A stretch of DNA of 64,000 bases, taken from an uncultured SAR202 cluster bacterium (GTDB lineage Bacteria; Chloroflexota; Dehalococcoidia; Lucifugimonadales; Lucifugimonadaceae). The stretch spans positions 124,001 through 188,000 of the forward strand of contig CACNIC010000001.1 in assembly GCA_902620405.1 (NCBI GenBank), in the 5' to 3' direction. How positions within the stretch are numbered: position 1 is the first letter of the stretch; each line of letters opens with the position of its first letter. The position numbers and the translations under genes are program-made. The notes under the pieces are model-generated. The model saw nothing but the letters and a program-made list of their open reading frames with translations, was not told where the DNA came from and did no database searches. This document shows positions 11,143 through 41,528 of the stretch, in pieces.

Positions 11143-11171
11143 TGAATAATCCAATAACGTGTTATTATTCA
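11143..11171. promoter_or_regulatory. Nested palindromes, candidate Rrf2 operator
   Basis: Between the divergent rplY and Rrf2 genes, TGAATAAT (11143-11150) and ATTATTCA (11164-11171) form a perfect 8-bp inverted repeat. Inside it lies a second palindrome, AATAAC-GT-GTTATT (11153-11166). Rrf2 regulators bind AT-rich dyads and usually control their own genes, so this is the natural operator candidate. Confidence 0.5.
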
Positions 11172-11194: not shown

Positions 11195-11632
11195 ATGCTA
11201 GTACCTATGAAAATTGATTATGGAGTAAGAATCCTTGTGCATCTTGCCTCACTTGAACCTGATACTATTGTAAAAGCAACTGAAATTTCAAAAAAAAGAC
11301 ATATACCAGAAAAATTCCTTTTTCAAATATCAAATGAATTAATTGAAAAAAAATTTATAAAAAGTCTTAGAGGTCCAAATGGAGGATATTCACTTGCAAA
11401 GAATCCTTCTGAAATATCTATTGCTGATATCATGGAAGGTCTCGATAAAAGTAGGTCATTAGTATCCTGCTTATATAACTCTGATATATGTGTTATTTCT
11501 GGTCACTGCTCACAACAAGACATGTGGTCAGATGTAGAACAAACTCTTATTTCTAAGTTGCAAACTATAACTATCAAAGACTTAGCAGATAAGGACAGAA
11601 CAATTATCGATGCGGCAAAGTTGGAAAATTAG
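11195..11632 (+). CDS. Rrf2-family regulator with IscR-like cysteine triad
   Basis: An Rrf2 DNA-binding protein of 145 residues from the chosen ATG, which has GGAG eight bases upstream. A GTG 36 bases earlier is possible but lacks such a site. The winged-helix segment includes RGPNGGYSLAKNP. Cysteines at 92, 99 and 105 closely match the Fe-S-binding positions of IscR (92, 98, 104), so it may sense Fe-S or sulfur status. The gene ends in TAG and the next base starts a cysteine-rich leader ORF. Control of the downstream thiF-cysM genes is inferred from position. Confidence 0.85.
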   Translation: MLVPMKIDYGVRILVHLASLEPDTIVKATEISKKRHIPEKFLFQISNELIEKKFIKSLRGPNGGYSLAKNPSEISIADIMEGLDKSRSLVSCLYNSDICVISGHCSQQDMWSDVEQTLISKLQTITIKDLADKDRTIIDAAKLEN

Positions 11633-11677
11633 ATGAATTTTGCTAAGTTGTGTTGCATAAATTGTTGTATTTTATGA
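11633..11677 (+). CDS. Cysteine leader peptide upstream of thiF-cysM
   Basis: A 14-codon ORF, MNFAKLCCINCCIL, whose ATG directly follows the rrf2 TAG. Four of its 14 codons are Cys (two TGT/TGC pairs). A GGA eight bases upstream of the ATG and the abutting stop allow translation coupled to rrf2. It ends two bases before the 5' arm of an antiterminator and 26 bases before a strong intrinsic terminator, the classical arrangement of an amino-acid attenuator. Confidence 0.8.
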   Translation: MNFAKLCCINCCIL

Positions 11678-11678
11678 A

Positions 11679-11706
11679 GGGTATTTAAATTTTTACTCAA
11701 GTACCC
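11679..11706 (+). promoter_or_regulatory. Antiterminator of the thiF cysteine attenuator
   Basis: GGGTATTT (11679-11686) can pair with AAGTACCC (11699-11706) in eight consecutive pairs, one of them G-U. The 3' arm takes away the CCC that starts the terminator stem, so the two hairpins exclude each other. A ribosome finishing the leader at the TGA (11675-11677) would cover the 5' arm and favour termination. One stalled at Cys codons would leave it free. Confidence 0.75.
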
Positions 11707-11728
11707 CGAATATTCGGGGTTTTTTTTT
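11704..11728 (+). terminator. Intrinsic terminator in the thiF leader
   Basis: CCCCGAA-TA-TTCGGGG forms a 7-bp GC-rich stem (extendable into the loop), followed by nine T. It lies 11 bases before the thiF-like ATG. Its stem-loop core differs by a single base from the terminator core at 41415-41439. Confidence 0.95.
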
Positions 11729-11739
11729 GAAAGGAAAAA

Positions 11740-12555
11740 ATGTTTAATAAATTAACTCCAGATGAAGTAGATAGATATAGTAGACATATCATAATGCCTC
11801 AGGTTGGATCTGAAGGACAAAGAAAATTAAAAAATTCAAGTATTCTTATTGTTGGTGCTGGTGGCTTAGGATCTCCCGCTGCATTATATTTAGCTCTAGC
11901 AGGAGTAGGAAAAATAGGAGTTGCTGATTTTGATGTAGTTGACCGTAGTAATTTACAAAGGCAAGTTTTACATAGAGATTCAGATATTGGTAAAAGAAAA
12001 GTTGTTTCCGCAATGGAAACATTAAAAGCTTATAATCCTAACGTTGAAGTTATTATGCATGACGAACCCATTAATTCATCAAATGCTTTGCAAATTATAA
12101 ATAATTACGACGGGGTAATTAATGGTGCTGATAATTTTCCAACAAGATATTTAATTTGTGACGCTACATTTCTTTTAAAAAAACCTCTTTTTGACGGCAG
12201 CGTGTTAATGTTTGATGGTCAAGTTACAACATATGTTCCTAGTAAAAATTGTTACAGATGTATTTTTCCTGACCCACCACCACCGGGATCAGTTCCGAGT
12301 TGTTCTGAGGCAGGGGTTATTGGTGCTCTACCTGGATTAGTTGGAAGCATCCAAGCTATTGAAGCTGTTAAATATTTATTGGGTATCGGGGATGTGCTTG
12401 ATGGAAGAATGATCCTTATTGATGCTTTAAGCATGGAGTTCAGAACTGTCAAAATTAGGAGAAACAGTGATTGTGATTTATGTGGAGATGAACCTAAAAT
12501 ATCTGAATTAATCGACTACGAAGTTTTCTGTGGAATGCCTGCAGTTGAAAGGTGA
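11740..12555 (+). CDS. ThiF/MoeB-family E1-like adenylyltransferase
   Basis: A 271-residue E1-like enzyme that adenylates the C-terminal Gly-Gly of a ubiquitin-fold sulfur carrier. The ATP-binding GAGGLGS is at 39-45, followed by DFDVVDRSNLQRQ. Two CxxC pairs (CYRC and CDLC) form the usual zinc site. It has no rhodanese domain. GAAAGGAAAAA supplies a good ribosome site. The stop overlaps the cysteine synthase region, so the pair is one operon under the cysteine attenuator. In mycobacteria a related E1 loads CysO for CysM; no CysO or Mec homologue is seen here. Confidence 0.9.
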   Translation: MFNKLTPDEVDRYSRHIIMPQVGSEGQRKLKNSSILIVGAGGLGSPAALYLALAGVGKIGVADFDVVDRSNLQRQVLHRDSDIGKRKVVSAMETLKAYNPNVEVIMHDEPINSSNALQIINNYDGVINGADNFPTRYLICDATFLLKKPLFDGSVLMFDGQVTTYVPSKNCYRCIFPDPPPPGSVPSCSEAGVIGALPGLVGSIQAIEAVKYLLGIGDVLDGRMILIDALSMEFRTVKIRRNSDCDLCGDEPKISELIDYEVFCGMPAVER

Positions 12556-12557
12556 CT

Positions 12558-13487
12558 ATGCAAAAAAATATTGTTGAAACTATTGGTAACACTCCTTTAA
12601 TAGAAATTAGTGAAATAAGTCCCAACAGCGCAAAGATTTTTGCAAAACTTGAAAGCTCAAATCCTGCGGGAAGTATTAAAGATAGAGTTGCAAAATATCT
12701 TATTGAGTCTGCTGAGAAAAATGGAAATATAAAAAAAGGATCGACGATAATTGAGCCTACAAGTGGAAATACAGGAATAGCGCTTGCAATGATATCCAAG
12801 GTTAAAGGCTACAATATGATTGCAGTAATGCCAGACAATGTAAGCGATGAAAGAAAATCTTTACTTTCATCATTAGGTGCAGAAATTATTTTTTCAAATG
12901 GTGAAGAAGGAACCAACGGTGCTATTAGGCTTGCCCAAGAAATTGATAAAAATAATGATGATTATTTCATGCCATATCAATATGGAAACGAAGCAAATCC
13001 AAGAGCTCATTATGAGACAACGGGACCTGAAATTATAAAACAAATGCCTGATATAAATGTGTTTGTAGCAGGGCTTGGTACAGGTGGAACATTAATGGGT
13101 GTTGGAAAAGCTCTAAAAGAATATAATGAAGATATAAAAATCGTCGCTGCCGCACCTCATCCAGAAGAAGTTGTGCCTGCCTTAAGAAGCATTGAGCATG
13201 GATTTATACCTCCTATCTTAGATTTAGAAAAACTTGACTCCAGAATTCTTGTAGGGGAAGAAGAATCATTTTACTGGACTAAGGAATTGATGGACAAATG
13301 TGGGGTTTTCGCAGGCGTATCTTGTGGCGCTGTAACAGCGGCAGCAGTAAAAGTTGCGAAAAAAATTGAAAAAGGAAATATTGTTTTAATTATTGCTGAT
13401 TCGGGTGAAAGGTATCTTTCCAGTAGGTTATGGGACATGGAGTACAAAGAAATCAAAGAAATCGGTGATCAAAAAATATGGTGGTAA
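12558..13487 (+). CDS. cysM: Cysteine synthase (CysM/CysK family)
   Basis: A PLP-dependent cysteine synthase of about 309 residues that replaces the acetyl or phospho group of an activated serine with sulfide or a carrier thiocarboxylate. The PLP lysine lies in NPAGSIKDR near residue 41, with TSGNTGIA and GTGGT phosphate-binding loops. ATG at 12558 is preceded by AAAGG; a GTG at 12552 overlapping the previous stop is the alternative. Coupling to a ThiF-like E1 suggests the CysM type that uses a protein thiocarboxylate, but that is inference. Confidence 0.92.
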   Translation: MQKNIVETIGNTPLIEISEISPNSAKIFAKLESSNPAGSIKDRVAKYLIESAEKNGNIKKGSTIIEPTSGNTGIALAMISKVKGYNMIAVMPDNVSDERKSLLSSLGAEIIFSNGEEGTNGAIRLAQEIDKNNDDYFMPYQYGNEANPRAHYETTGPEIIKQMPDINVFVAGLGTGGTLMGVGKALKEYNEDIKIVAAAPHPEEVVPALRSIEHGFIPPILDLEKLDSRILVGEEESFYWTKELMDKCGVFAGVSCGAVTAAAVKVAKKIEKGNIVLIIADSGERYLSSRLWDMEYKEIKEIGDQKIWW

Positions 13488-28334: not shown

Positions 28335-28365
28335 AAAAAAATCCGCGTATCTTTCGATACACGGA
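28335..28365 (-). terminator. Intrinsic terminator of the metY riboswitch
   Basis: On the minus strand TCCGTGTATC and GATACGCGGA form a 10-bp stem (one G-U pair) closed by a GAAA tetraloop, followed by seven T. It lies between the aptamer and the metY start. Its 5' arm can instead pair with the aptamer. Confidence 0.95.
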
Positions 28366-28427
28366 CACGTAATTTGCCTTTTAGCAGGTTTTTATAGTGT
28401 CCGCAAGCTGACTTTCAAATCAACACT
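28366..28427 (-). ncRNA. SAM-II/SAM-V-like riboswitch
   Basis: Read on the minus strand, AGTGT (28427-28423) and ACACT (28400-28396) close a stem around a TGATTTGAAAG loop. ATAAAAAC and the conserved-looking GCTAAAAGG follow. This order matches the SAM-II (metA motif) pseudoknot aptamer and its SAM-V relative. CGGACAC of the P1 3' side (28403-28397) is perfectly complementary to GTGTCCG (28368-28362) at the terminator 5' arm, giving an antiterminator that SAM binding would prevent. Placement before metY agrees. Confidence 0.7.
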
Positions 28428-28434
28428 TATATTC

Positions 28435-28464
28435 ATTATAACATAATTATTTTTTGTAATTCAA
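28435..28464 (-). promoter_or_regulatory. Promoter of the metY-metX operon
   Basis: TTGAAT (28464-28459) and a perfect TATAAT (28440-28435) are 18 bases apart on the minus strand. The predicted start site near 28428 coincides with the first base of the aptamer P1 stem. Confidence 0.7.
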
Positions 28465-40193: not shown

Positions 40194-41414
40194 TTAAAAC
40201 CTGCTTATAATCTTTGTTCCTAAAAAGGCACCTATGGCCAGAGATAATCCGAATAACCACCCACTAAGACTCATTGAAGGTATTGCTGAAAAAAAGGATC
40301 CCAATGTACATCCAATTGCTAACCCTGCTCCATAACCCATAAGAAGCCCGCCGCCAAAAGATTGAACTAGTCTAACCGGATTTTTTGGCATTCTAATTTT
40401 GAATTCACCAGATAGTTTTGAAGCTAAAAAAGAACCAGGAATTATTCCATATGTTGCTGCAAAAGAATTAGAAAAATAATTTGAGTTTGATGCTGCATTT
40501 GCAACACAACCTCCAAGTTCACTCAAACCTTTTACAGCTGGTTCCAGCCCAATAATTCTTAAAATATCATTGGCAGATGAAAAAAGTTCTCCAGTAACAC
40601 CAAAAGGTTTCGATACCACAAGAAGAAAAGTACTAATTATTCCTAAAATTATTACTCCTGTAGGCATGTTCCAAGGTGTCTTAAATATTAAGTATAGTGG
40701 TGAGTAAAGCTTTTCTTTAAGAGAATTGAATTCGTTTGGTTTATTGGATATTTTAAATTCCTTGTAGCCTTTTTTATGTTCGTATATTGTTAACCCAATA
40801 TAAACAGCAATACCCAGAAATAAAGTAACCAAAAAAGCTCCAAAATAACCCATATTAAATAATTTAGGAAGCCATATTTTAGGTTCATTGGATATTAAAT
40901 TGTCCCACCACCAATCCCATGATAAAGAAAGTACTGATAAGCCAGTTATTACTCCTAAAATACTAAAAAGTGAAGCTATGTAACCTTCACCAATCCTATA
41001 CAGCGATCCTGATACACAACCTCCAGCAATTACCATTCCAATACCAAAAAGGACACCCCCAATAATTGTAGAAATGCCAAAAGGTAAAATATATGGATCA
41101 GAAGGAATAGATCCAATAGTTGGATTTTGTATTATGGATCTCATAACAAATATGAATAAAAAAGACGTTGTAATCAATCCTAGAATAATTGACTTTAACG
41201 TTTTCGTGCTACCAAAAAGAAATAGATCTCTAAAAGATGATGCGAAACACAGCCTGCTTCTCTGAAGAGTTATTCCAGCTATTACAGAAAAAATCCAAAT
41301 AATACCAGTTACACTACTTATCGAATTCAAATAAATACCAAAAATAATAATAAATAATATAGCCAATAATGATGTTGGCTTAAAAGATATTAAATTTTGT
41401 GCGATTTTTTCCAT
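40194..41414 (-). CDS. tsuA: YeeE/YedE-family thiosulfate transporter (TsuA)
   Basis: 406 residues, about nine or more helices in two YeeE repeats. Conserved sulfur-relay Cys sites are visible: GGCVSGSLYRIGEG near 126, LGGCVANAASN near 302 and AIGCTLGSFFSA near 374. TsuA imports thiosulfate by handing it along these cysteines. The ATG follows directly on the T-run of an intrinsic terminator, so expression depends on antitermination by the cysteine leader upstream. Confidence 0.9.
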   Translation of the reverse strand: MEKIAQNLISFKPTSLLAILFIIIFGIYLNSISSVTGIIWIFSVIAGITLQRSRLCFASSFRDLFLFGSTKTLKSIILGLITTSFLFIFVMRSIIQNPTIGSIPSDPYILPFGISTIIGGVLFGIGMVIAGGCVSGSLYRIGEGYIASLFSILGVITGLSVLSLSWDWWWDNLISNEPKIWLPKLFNMGYFGAFLVTLFLGIAVYIGLTIYEHKKGYKEFKISNKPNEFNSLKEKLYSPLYLIFKTPWNMPTGVIILGIISTFLLVVSKPFGVTGELFSSANDILRIIGLEPAVKGLSELGGCVANAASNSNYFSNSFAATYGIIPGSFLASKLSGEFKIRMPKNPVRLVQSFGGGLLMGYGAGLAIGCTLGSFFSAIPSMSLSGWLFGLSLAIGAFLGTKIISRF

Positions 41415-41439
41415 AAAAAAAGCCCCGAATTTTCGGGGC
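41415..41439 (-). terminator. Intrinsic terminator in the tsuA leader
   Basis: On the minus strand GCCCCGAA and TTCGGGGC form an 8-bp stem with a two-base loop, followed by seven T and then at once the tsuA ATG. Its CCCCGAAAATTCGGGG core differs by one base from the thiF-leader terminator. Confidence 0.95.
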
Positions 41440-41480
41440 CGTCCATAACTTTACTAATTTAAACGCAGTTATATGACCCC
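41435..41480 (-). promoter_or_regulatory. Antiterminator of the tsuA cysteine attenuator
   Basis: On the minus strand GGGGTCATATAAC (41480-41468) can pair with GTTATGGACGGCCCC (41449-41435) through about 12 pairs with two small bulges, taking the CCC that starts the terminator stem. The 5' arm contains the leader's last codons and stop, so a ribosome reaching the stop would block it. A competing 13-of-14 pairing joins 41505-41518 (leader codons 4-8) to 41451-41464. Confidence 0.7.
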
Positions 41481-41528
41481 ATTTAAGGGAGTACAACAAC
41501 AGCAGTTTGAATTAGTAATATTTTTCAT
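41469..41528 (-). CDS. Cysteine leader peptide upstream of tsuA
   Basis: A 19-residue ORF, MKNITNSNCCCCTPLNGVI, with four consecutive Cys codons (TGC TGT TGT TGT at 41504-41493) and a TAA at 41471-41469. The promoter at 41539-41567 would start transcription about four bases before the ATG, so it is nearly leaderless. The position of the Cys run relative to the antiterminator and terminator is that of a classical attenuator responding to charged tRNA-Cys. Confidence 0.85.
   Translation of the reverse strand: MKNITNSNCCCCTPLNGVI

Follow-up and report, generated by a model that had tools for sequence, protein, structure and literature searches.

In a 64,000-nucleotide stretch of SAR202 DNA (hereafter the window), the region between rrf2 and thiF very probably encodes a cysteine-specific, ribosome-mediated transcription attenuator of thiF and cysM, a reading to which we assign a probability of about 0.88 from the sequence and its comparison with relatives. 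The element apparently belongs to a set of cysteine attenuators that precede sulfur genes in this SAR202/Dehalococcoidia order. The locus is organized as follows:

11195–11632, plus strand: rrf2, for an Rrf2-family regulator (Pfam PF02082, 4.7e-32; NCBIfam rrf2_super), likely on the same transcript as the leader and thiF; stop codon TAG at 11630–11632
11633–11677, plus strand: leader ORF MNFAKLCCINCCIL, with its ATG at 11633 abutting the rrf2 stop (TAG-ATG) and its stop TGA at 11675–11677 (sequence; Cys-rich leader in 9/9 genus members)
11651–11656, plus strand: putative regulatory Cys codons TGT TGC (sequence)
11663–11668, plus strand: putative regulatory Cys codons TGT TGT, the last starting 13 nt before the antiterminator arm
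11679–11686, plus strand: antiterminator 5′ arm GGGTATTT (folding, spacing tests)
11699–11706, plus strand: antiterminator 3′ arm AAGTACCC, overlapping the terminator by 4 nt (folding)
11703–11720, plus strand: intrinsic terminator hairpin ACCCCGAA-TA-TTCGGGGT (terminator scoring, folding, alignment)
11720–11728, plus strand: nine-T tract of the terminator (sequence)
11729–11739, plus strand: 11-nt spacer before thiF, with a Shine-Dalgarno-like AAAGGA (sequence)
11740–12555, plus strand: thiF/moeB-like gene for an E1 adenylyltransferase, putative first regulated gene (Pfam PF00899, 2.2e-80; NCBIfam MoeB/MoeZ/UbaA relatives)
12558–13487, plus strand: gene for a cysM/cysK-type cysteine synthase, putative second regulated gene (NCBIfam cysKM, 2.4e-107, above cut-off)

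Four of the 14 leader codons specify Cys (starting at 11651, 11654, 11663 and 11666), and the ORF begins on the base after the rrf2 TAG, exactly as stated in a preliminary description of this site. The terminator reported there, CCCCGAA-TA-TTCGGGG followed by nine T and ending 11 bases before the thiF ATG, is present as such, and is the top-scoring terminator-like site between 10300 and 14000 (ΔG about −11.5 to −11.8). It overlaps by 4 nt an antiterminator of eight pairs, including one G-U (ΔG about −7), and the claim that the two helices exclude each other was thus confirmed. The leader stop lies one base before the antiterminator 5′ arm, rather than the two bases originally given. The cysteine synthase operon announced downstream was recovered as thiF-cysM by Pfam and NCBIfam matches. 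In mycobacteria, CysO, CysM and Mec constitute a protein-thiocarboxylate route to cysteine; a ThiS-family and a JAB-family protein are also encoded in the genome of the window, and would be compatible with a route of this kind.

In the proposed mechanism, translation of the leader peptide by a ribosome would go on while RNA polymerase is transcribing the leader region before thiF-cysM. With ample Cys-tRNA, the ribosome would reach the TGA and cover GGGTATTT, allowing the CCCCGAA/TTCGGGG terminator to form and transcription to end at the T-run before thiF. With scarce Cys-tRNA, it would stall at the Cys codons, leaving GGGTATTT free to pair with AAGTACCC once the latter is transcribed; the terminator would then be blocked and thiF-cysM transcribed. 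The ORF with its Cys codons, the two exclusive helices and their spacing, the conservation and the genes downstream are seen directly in the sequences and their comparison, whereas leader translation, stalling, termination, readthrough, the response to cysteine and co-transcription with rrf2 are inferred.

The spacing of the element fits these two ribosome positions. If the footprint of a ribosome reaches about 13 nt beyond its A-site codon, its edge would fall at 11679, the start of the 5′ arm, when the A site holds the last Cys codon, and at 11688 when it holds the stop; the arm itself begins 13 nt downstream of the last Cys codon and 4 nt downstream of the first base of the stop. On geometry only, a ribosome halted on the final Cys codon leaves the arm free and one at the stop codon covers it, in agreement with the earlier suggestion that a ribosome finishing the peptide would force termination. 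Equilibrium folding prefers the terminator (about −11.8) over the antiterminator (−6.8), even with a stalled ribosome, and the RNA without translation likewise folds into the terminator. Because the terminator is the more stable structure at equilibrium, antitermination would have to be kinetic, won before the GGGG arm is made. A competing hairpin, GGGTA/TACTC, is also present in the window. The "textbook" geometry first attributed to the element holds for the core components, all of which are present and conserved, but not for the remainder: folding gave no clear 1:2 protector hairpin in the window element, and neither a promoter nor a clear Shine-Dalgarno sequence was found upstream of its leader.

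We compared the locus with metagenome-assembled genomes of the SAR202 cluster and Dehalococcoidia (Chloroflexota), the same-genus contigs including those of SAR202 cluster bacterium OSU_TB34. A Cys-rich leader followed by a terminator precedes thiF in 9/9 genus members with a thiF match. The leader peptides (MNFAKLCCINCCIL in two species, MNFAKFCHINCCSF, MFVEIKIRKFCLCCKF, MSIEMKNRKFCLCCHL, MFVAIRNKKFCLCCSATYEGHLI, MFIEAKNKFFCMCCNVTYDGHLI, MIFDLIQDCCCCQYDNGVSTRI and MNIYCLCKNNNFCLPCTRCRLSCL) diverge among these members, and the Cys codons are retained. The preliminary description had suggested looking for close relatives that lost the ORF and kept the terminator; since all nine members keep both, the genus contains no such case. 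In a second genus (g6), the device precedes thiF without rrf2 directly upstream (L010, L012, L013 and L183–L185), and the overlap of its antiterminator with the terminator core is minimal. Among 99 distinct thiF upstream regions, 12 contained a Cys-Cys leader plus a terminator, three the leader alone, four the terminator alone and 80 neither, a co-occurrence with a Fisher p of about 8e-10 that includes related, non-independent sequences. The Cys-Cys filter behind this count overlooked the leader of L009, which is present; L009 showed no good antiterminator.

Position 11703 is a switch nucleotide, paired in both the antiterminator and the terminator. Across the 7/7 aligned species it occurs as A with T/T, G with T/T or G with C/C (antiterminator/terminator partners), and both partners seem to have changed from T to C in one evolutionary event, which is suggestive rather than proof. 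Because a covariation test by letter shuffling was not significant, covariation is claimed for the switch nucleotide only.

The thiF leader starts 0–2 nt after the rrf2 stop in seven genus members, and this position, together with the lack of a promoter and of a clear Shine-Dalgarno sequence, makes it apparently nested in the rrf2 operon. Such a start, kept in seven species, suggests stop-start coupling, in which case the leader would be translated by ribosomes that finished rrf2. Attenuation at thiF thus probably takes place within an operon, with the leader translated through coupling. A dyad, AATAAC-GT-GTTATT, lies 5′ of rrf2 at window positions 11153–11166, and is a candidate autoregulatory operator.

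The preliminary description had counted the thiF element as the second in the window, and the first also proved to be real, with a minus-strand leader before a TsuA/YeeE-like gene:

41469–41528, minus strand (leader read from 41528 to 41469): leader MKNITNSNCCCCTPLNGVI, predicted near-leaderless from TTGACA-N17-TACTAT (sequence)
41421–41440, minus strand: terminator GGCCCCGAA-AA-TTCGGGGCT, then a T-run abutting the tsuA ATG (sequence)
40194–41414, minus strand: tsuA, for a TsuA/YeeE-like sulfur (possibly thiosulfate) transporter, putative regulated gene of this sister element (Pfam Sulf_transp, 1.7e-61; TsuA models below cut-off)

A pattern of Cys-Cys plus terminator matched two loci in the genome of the window, thiF and tsuA, and its reversed form, used as control, matched nowhere. 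Independently of this pattern, tsuA orthologues were collected by protein homology and their upstream regions read by eye; a Cys-rich leader was present in 13/19 genomes.

Across the order, we searched for Cys-Cys followed by a CCCC/GGGG terminator, using the reversed pattern as control. Matches occurred in 70 of 250 genomes, as compared with six for the control, and some of them, chiefly in large G+C-rich genomes, will be due to chance. They often lie upstream of sulfur genes, which were named by reading the sequences, not all being run against family libraries. In the clear cases, genes downstream of Cys leaders include those for sulfite reductase (L112, L170), PAPS reductase (L124), O-acetylhomoserine sulfhydrylase or a similar enzyme (L192, L193; mixed Met-Cys leader MMCCDMGCCMN), a thioredoxin-like protein (L165, L166), an ATP-grasp enzyme resembling glutathione synthases (L111, L164, L167) and a DUF4395-like protein (L121, L136). 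The leaders of L121 and L136 contain up to seven consecutive Cys codons, with 1:2, 2:3 and 3:4 pairings seen by eye; a GAAAC/GTTTC pairing noticed in the same way in L121 is a candidate protector hairpin. A class-wide search with TGCTGY matched 23/393 genomes, mostly, it seems, by chance.

In 36 elements we then located the 5′ arm of the helix that forms while the terminator is still incomplete. Measured from the first base of the run's last Cys codon, the start of this arm lies at a median distance of 15.5 nt (within 10–18 nt in 32/36), and in 34/36 the arm would be covered by a ribosome positioned on the stop codon. All the elements used contain the terminator, and most of them an antiterminator. 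In 25/36, this 10–18 nt spacing is combined with coverage of two or more nucleotides of the terminator core, where interval shuffles expect 2.7; these elements are not all independent, and of the 16 groups defined by gene and clade about 12 had a passing member. L195–L197, before an AprB-like gene, were dropped since their Cys run resembles the end of the preceding gene, and the matches of g12 (e.g. L177) were set aside for their different layout. Exclusions were made after the first folding test, and counting the excluded elements as failures gives 25/40.

In most leaders other than that of thiF, a promoter −10 box ends 6–10 nt before the ATG (e.g. TTGACA-N17-TACTAT for tsuA), and these leaders are therefore predicted to be leaderless or nearly so. 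The same distance was observed in L139–L142, L150, L189 and L190, so that leaderless poly-Cys ORFs are predicted in Chloroflexota.

Four other explanations were weighed against transcription attenuation. The one that survives best, that the leader acts mainly on downstream translation and the hairpin hides the ribosome-binding site, is in our opinion unlikely. It has a precedent in mycobacterial poly-Cys ORFs, described as translation attenuation (PMC13236596), and the GGGG of the tsuA terminator 3′ arm could form part of a ribosome-binding site; nevertheless, the AAAGGA of thiF itself lies clear of the hairpin, and T-runs, the mark of intrinsic termination, follow the hairpin in nearly every element.

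Alternatively, the hairpin could be an ordinary transcription terminator of rrf2, directly 3′ of this gene as it is in seven genus members, and the Cys ORF a chance ORF. This we consider quite improbable, because the 11-nt spacer between terminator and thiF is too short for a promoter, leaving no space for one before the ATG. Besides, all nine genus members retain the Cys-rich ORF, the device is also found in front of unrelated sulfur genes and, in another genus, with no rrf2 before it, and the antiterminator spacing is far above chance.

A Cys-rich nascent peptide might instead arrest the ribosome by sensing metal, redox or Fe-S status, perhaps in connection with Rrf2. Cys-rich peptides are able to bind metals, and the neighbouring Rrf2 protein has three Cys near residues 90–105, placed like Fe-S ligands. 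Beyond the Cys codons, however, the peptide is hardly conserved and its Cys differ in number and order, as codon counting would predict and a folded sensor would not, and the genes regulated would be mainly sulfur and cysteine genes; we regard this possibility as very improbable. A riboswitch or T-box reading cysteine, tRNA or a sulfur metabolite directly would use similar terminator control, and a SAM-II riboswitch does occur elsewhere in the window, but an Rfam scan of the whole 64-kb window found only tRNA and SAM-II and no family at the attenuator site, and neither a T-box nor any known aptamer would fit into the roughly 30 nt that separate the leader from the terminator, making this explanation hardly credible.

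Transcription attenuation by a translating ribosome thus stands as the preferred reading. A more far-reaching version, to which we give somewhat less than even odds, is that the leader is translated only by ribosomes coming from rrf2, so that Rrf2 would always be made and thiF-cysM only under cysteine shortage, and that the element belongs to a regulon of Cys (and Met) leader peptides which, throughout the order, stands in for control of SAR202 sulfur genes by proteins or riboswitches.

Classical leader-peptide attenuators are those of the trp, his, leu and ilv operons of Proteobacteria. Like them, the window element combines a short ORF rich in codons for the product amino acid, an antiterminator exclusive with an intrinsic terminator, and a biosynthetic operon downstream; unlike them, its signal is cysteine, its host belongs to the Chloroflexota, it is apparently nested behind rrf2, and no 1:2 protector hairpin was seen in it. 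Leader-peptide attenuators of trp are also found in Actinobacteria, and a 2005 study predicted Cys leader peptides that lack terminators in Mycobacterium, Propionibacterium and Bifidobacterium (PMC1262725). More recently, the mycobacterial ones have been presented as attenuators that respond to cysteine at the level of translation (PMC9094748, PMC13236596), both papers citing Canestrari et al. 2020 on Cys leader peptides. In both SAR202 and Actinobacteria, cys genes are preceded by short ORFs in which Cys codons occur in runs, and one genome has such ORFs at several of its sulfur operons; many SAR202 leaders, including those of tsuA and most other elements, are also predicted to be leaderless like the mycobacterial poly-Cys ORFs. 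The two differ in that the actinobacterial leaders show no conserved terminator hairpins and are described as attenuating translation, whereas the SAR202 elements used here carry terminators and mostly antiterminators; the window thiF leader further departs from the leaderless mycobacterial ORFs in starting at the rrf2 stop, with no promoter found. The SAR202 elements supply the terminator and antiterminator missing from actinobacterial leaders, and thus make cysteine attenuation testable in a simple reporter.

In Rhodobacterales, the uORFC-8-2 element, a Cys uORF plus intrinsic terminator before cysS, is predicted to work by transcription attenuation (PMC8632094). It resembles the SAR202 elements in its tandem Cys codons and terminator, and like them is a predicted attenuator. 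Unlike uORFC-8-2, which precedes one gene, cysS, in one proteobacterial order, the SAR202 set covers sulfur assimilation and transport genes, has another RNA layout and occurs in another phylum, with the window element preceding thiF-cysM. In the literature surveyed, no paper on leader-peptide attenuation in Chloroflexi or SAR202 was found. This kind of attenuator is known, and what is new is its occurrence in this phylum, the set of several sulfur genes that it precedes and the position of a leader at the rrf2 stop, apparently inside an operon, or, taken together, the combination of poly-Cys leaders and complete terminator/antiterminator pairs before many sulfur genes of Chloroflexota.

In the literature surveyed, ribosome-mediated attenuation is documented mainly in Proteobacteria and Actinobacteria, with isolated cases in Firmicutes. 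If our reading is true, an abundant uncultured ocean lineage would run much of its sulfur and cysteine economy in this way. The elements would also offer a sequence-only readout of the genes that cells treat as cysteine genes, among them uncharacterized ones such as the DUF4395 gene.

Several further arrangements were observed. In g12, the longer leaders of L172–L174, L177, L178, L181 and L198 contain two Cys clusters (CTCMCTC...CCTC), and ACAGGGGTT, between the clusters, can pair by eye with the terminator arm AACCCCTGT, as in a possible two-step attenuator. One class member (G269) contains an identical 69-bp stretch at many sites (38 pattern matches), perhaps the end of a mobile element. The SAM-II (SAM_alpha) riboswitch of the window, at 28361–28436 on the minus strand, has an apparent terminator and precedes an O-acetylhomoserine sulfhydrylase-like gene. 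Before a gene of this type in g6 (L132, L138 and L186), Met-rich leaders (MSMMMTFSKGDV, MNMNMMMTFSKGDV) are followed by a terminator, likely constituting a methionine attenuator where the genome of the window uses SAM-II.
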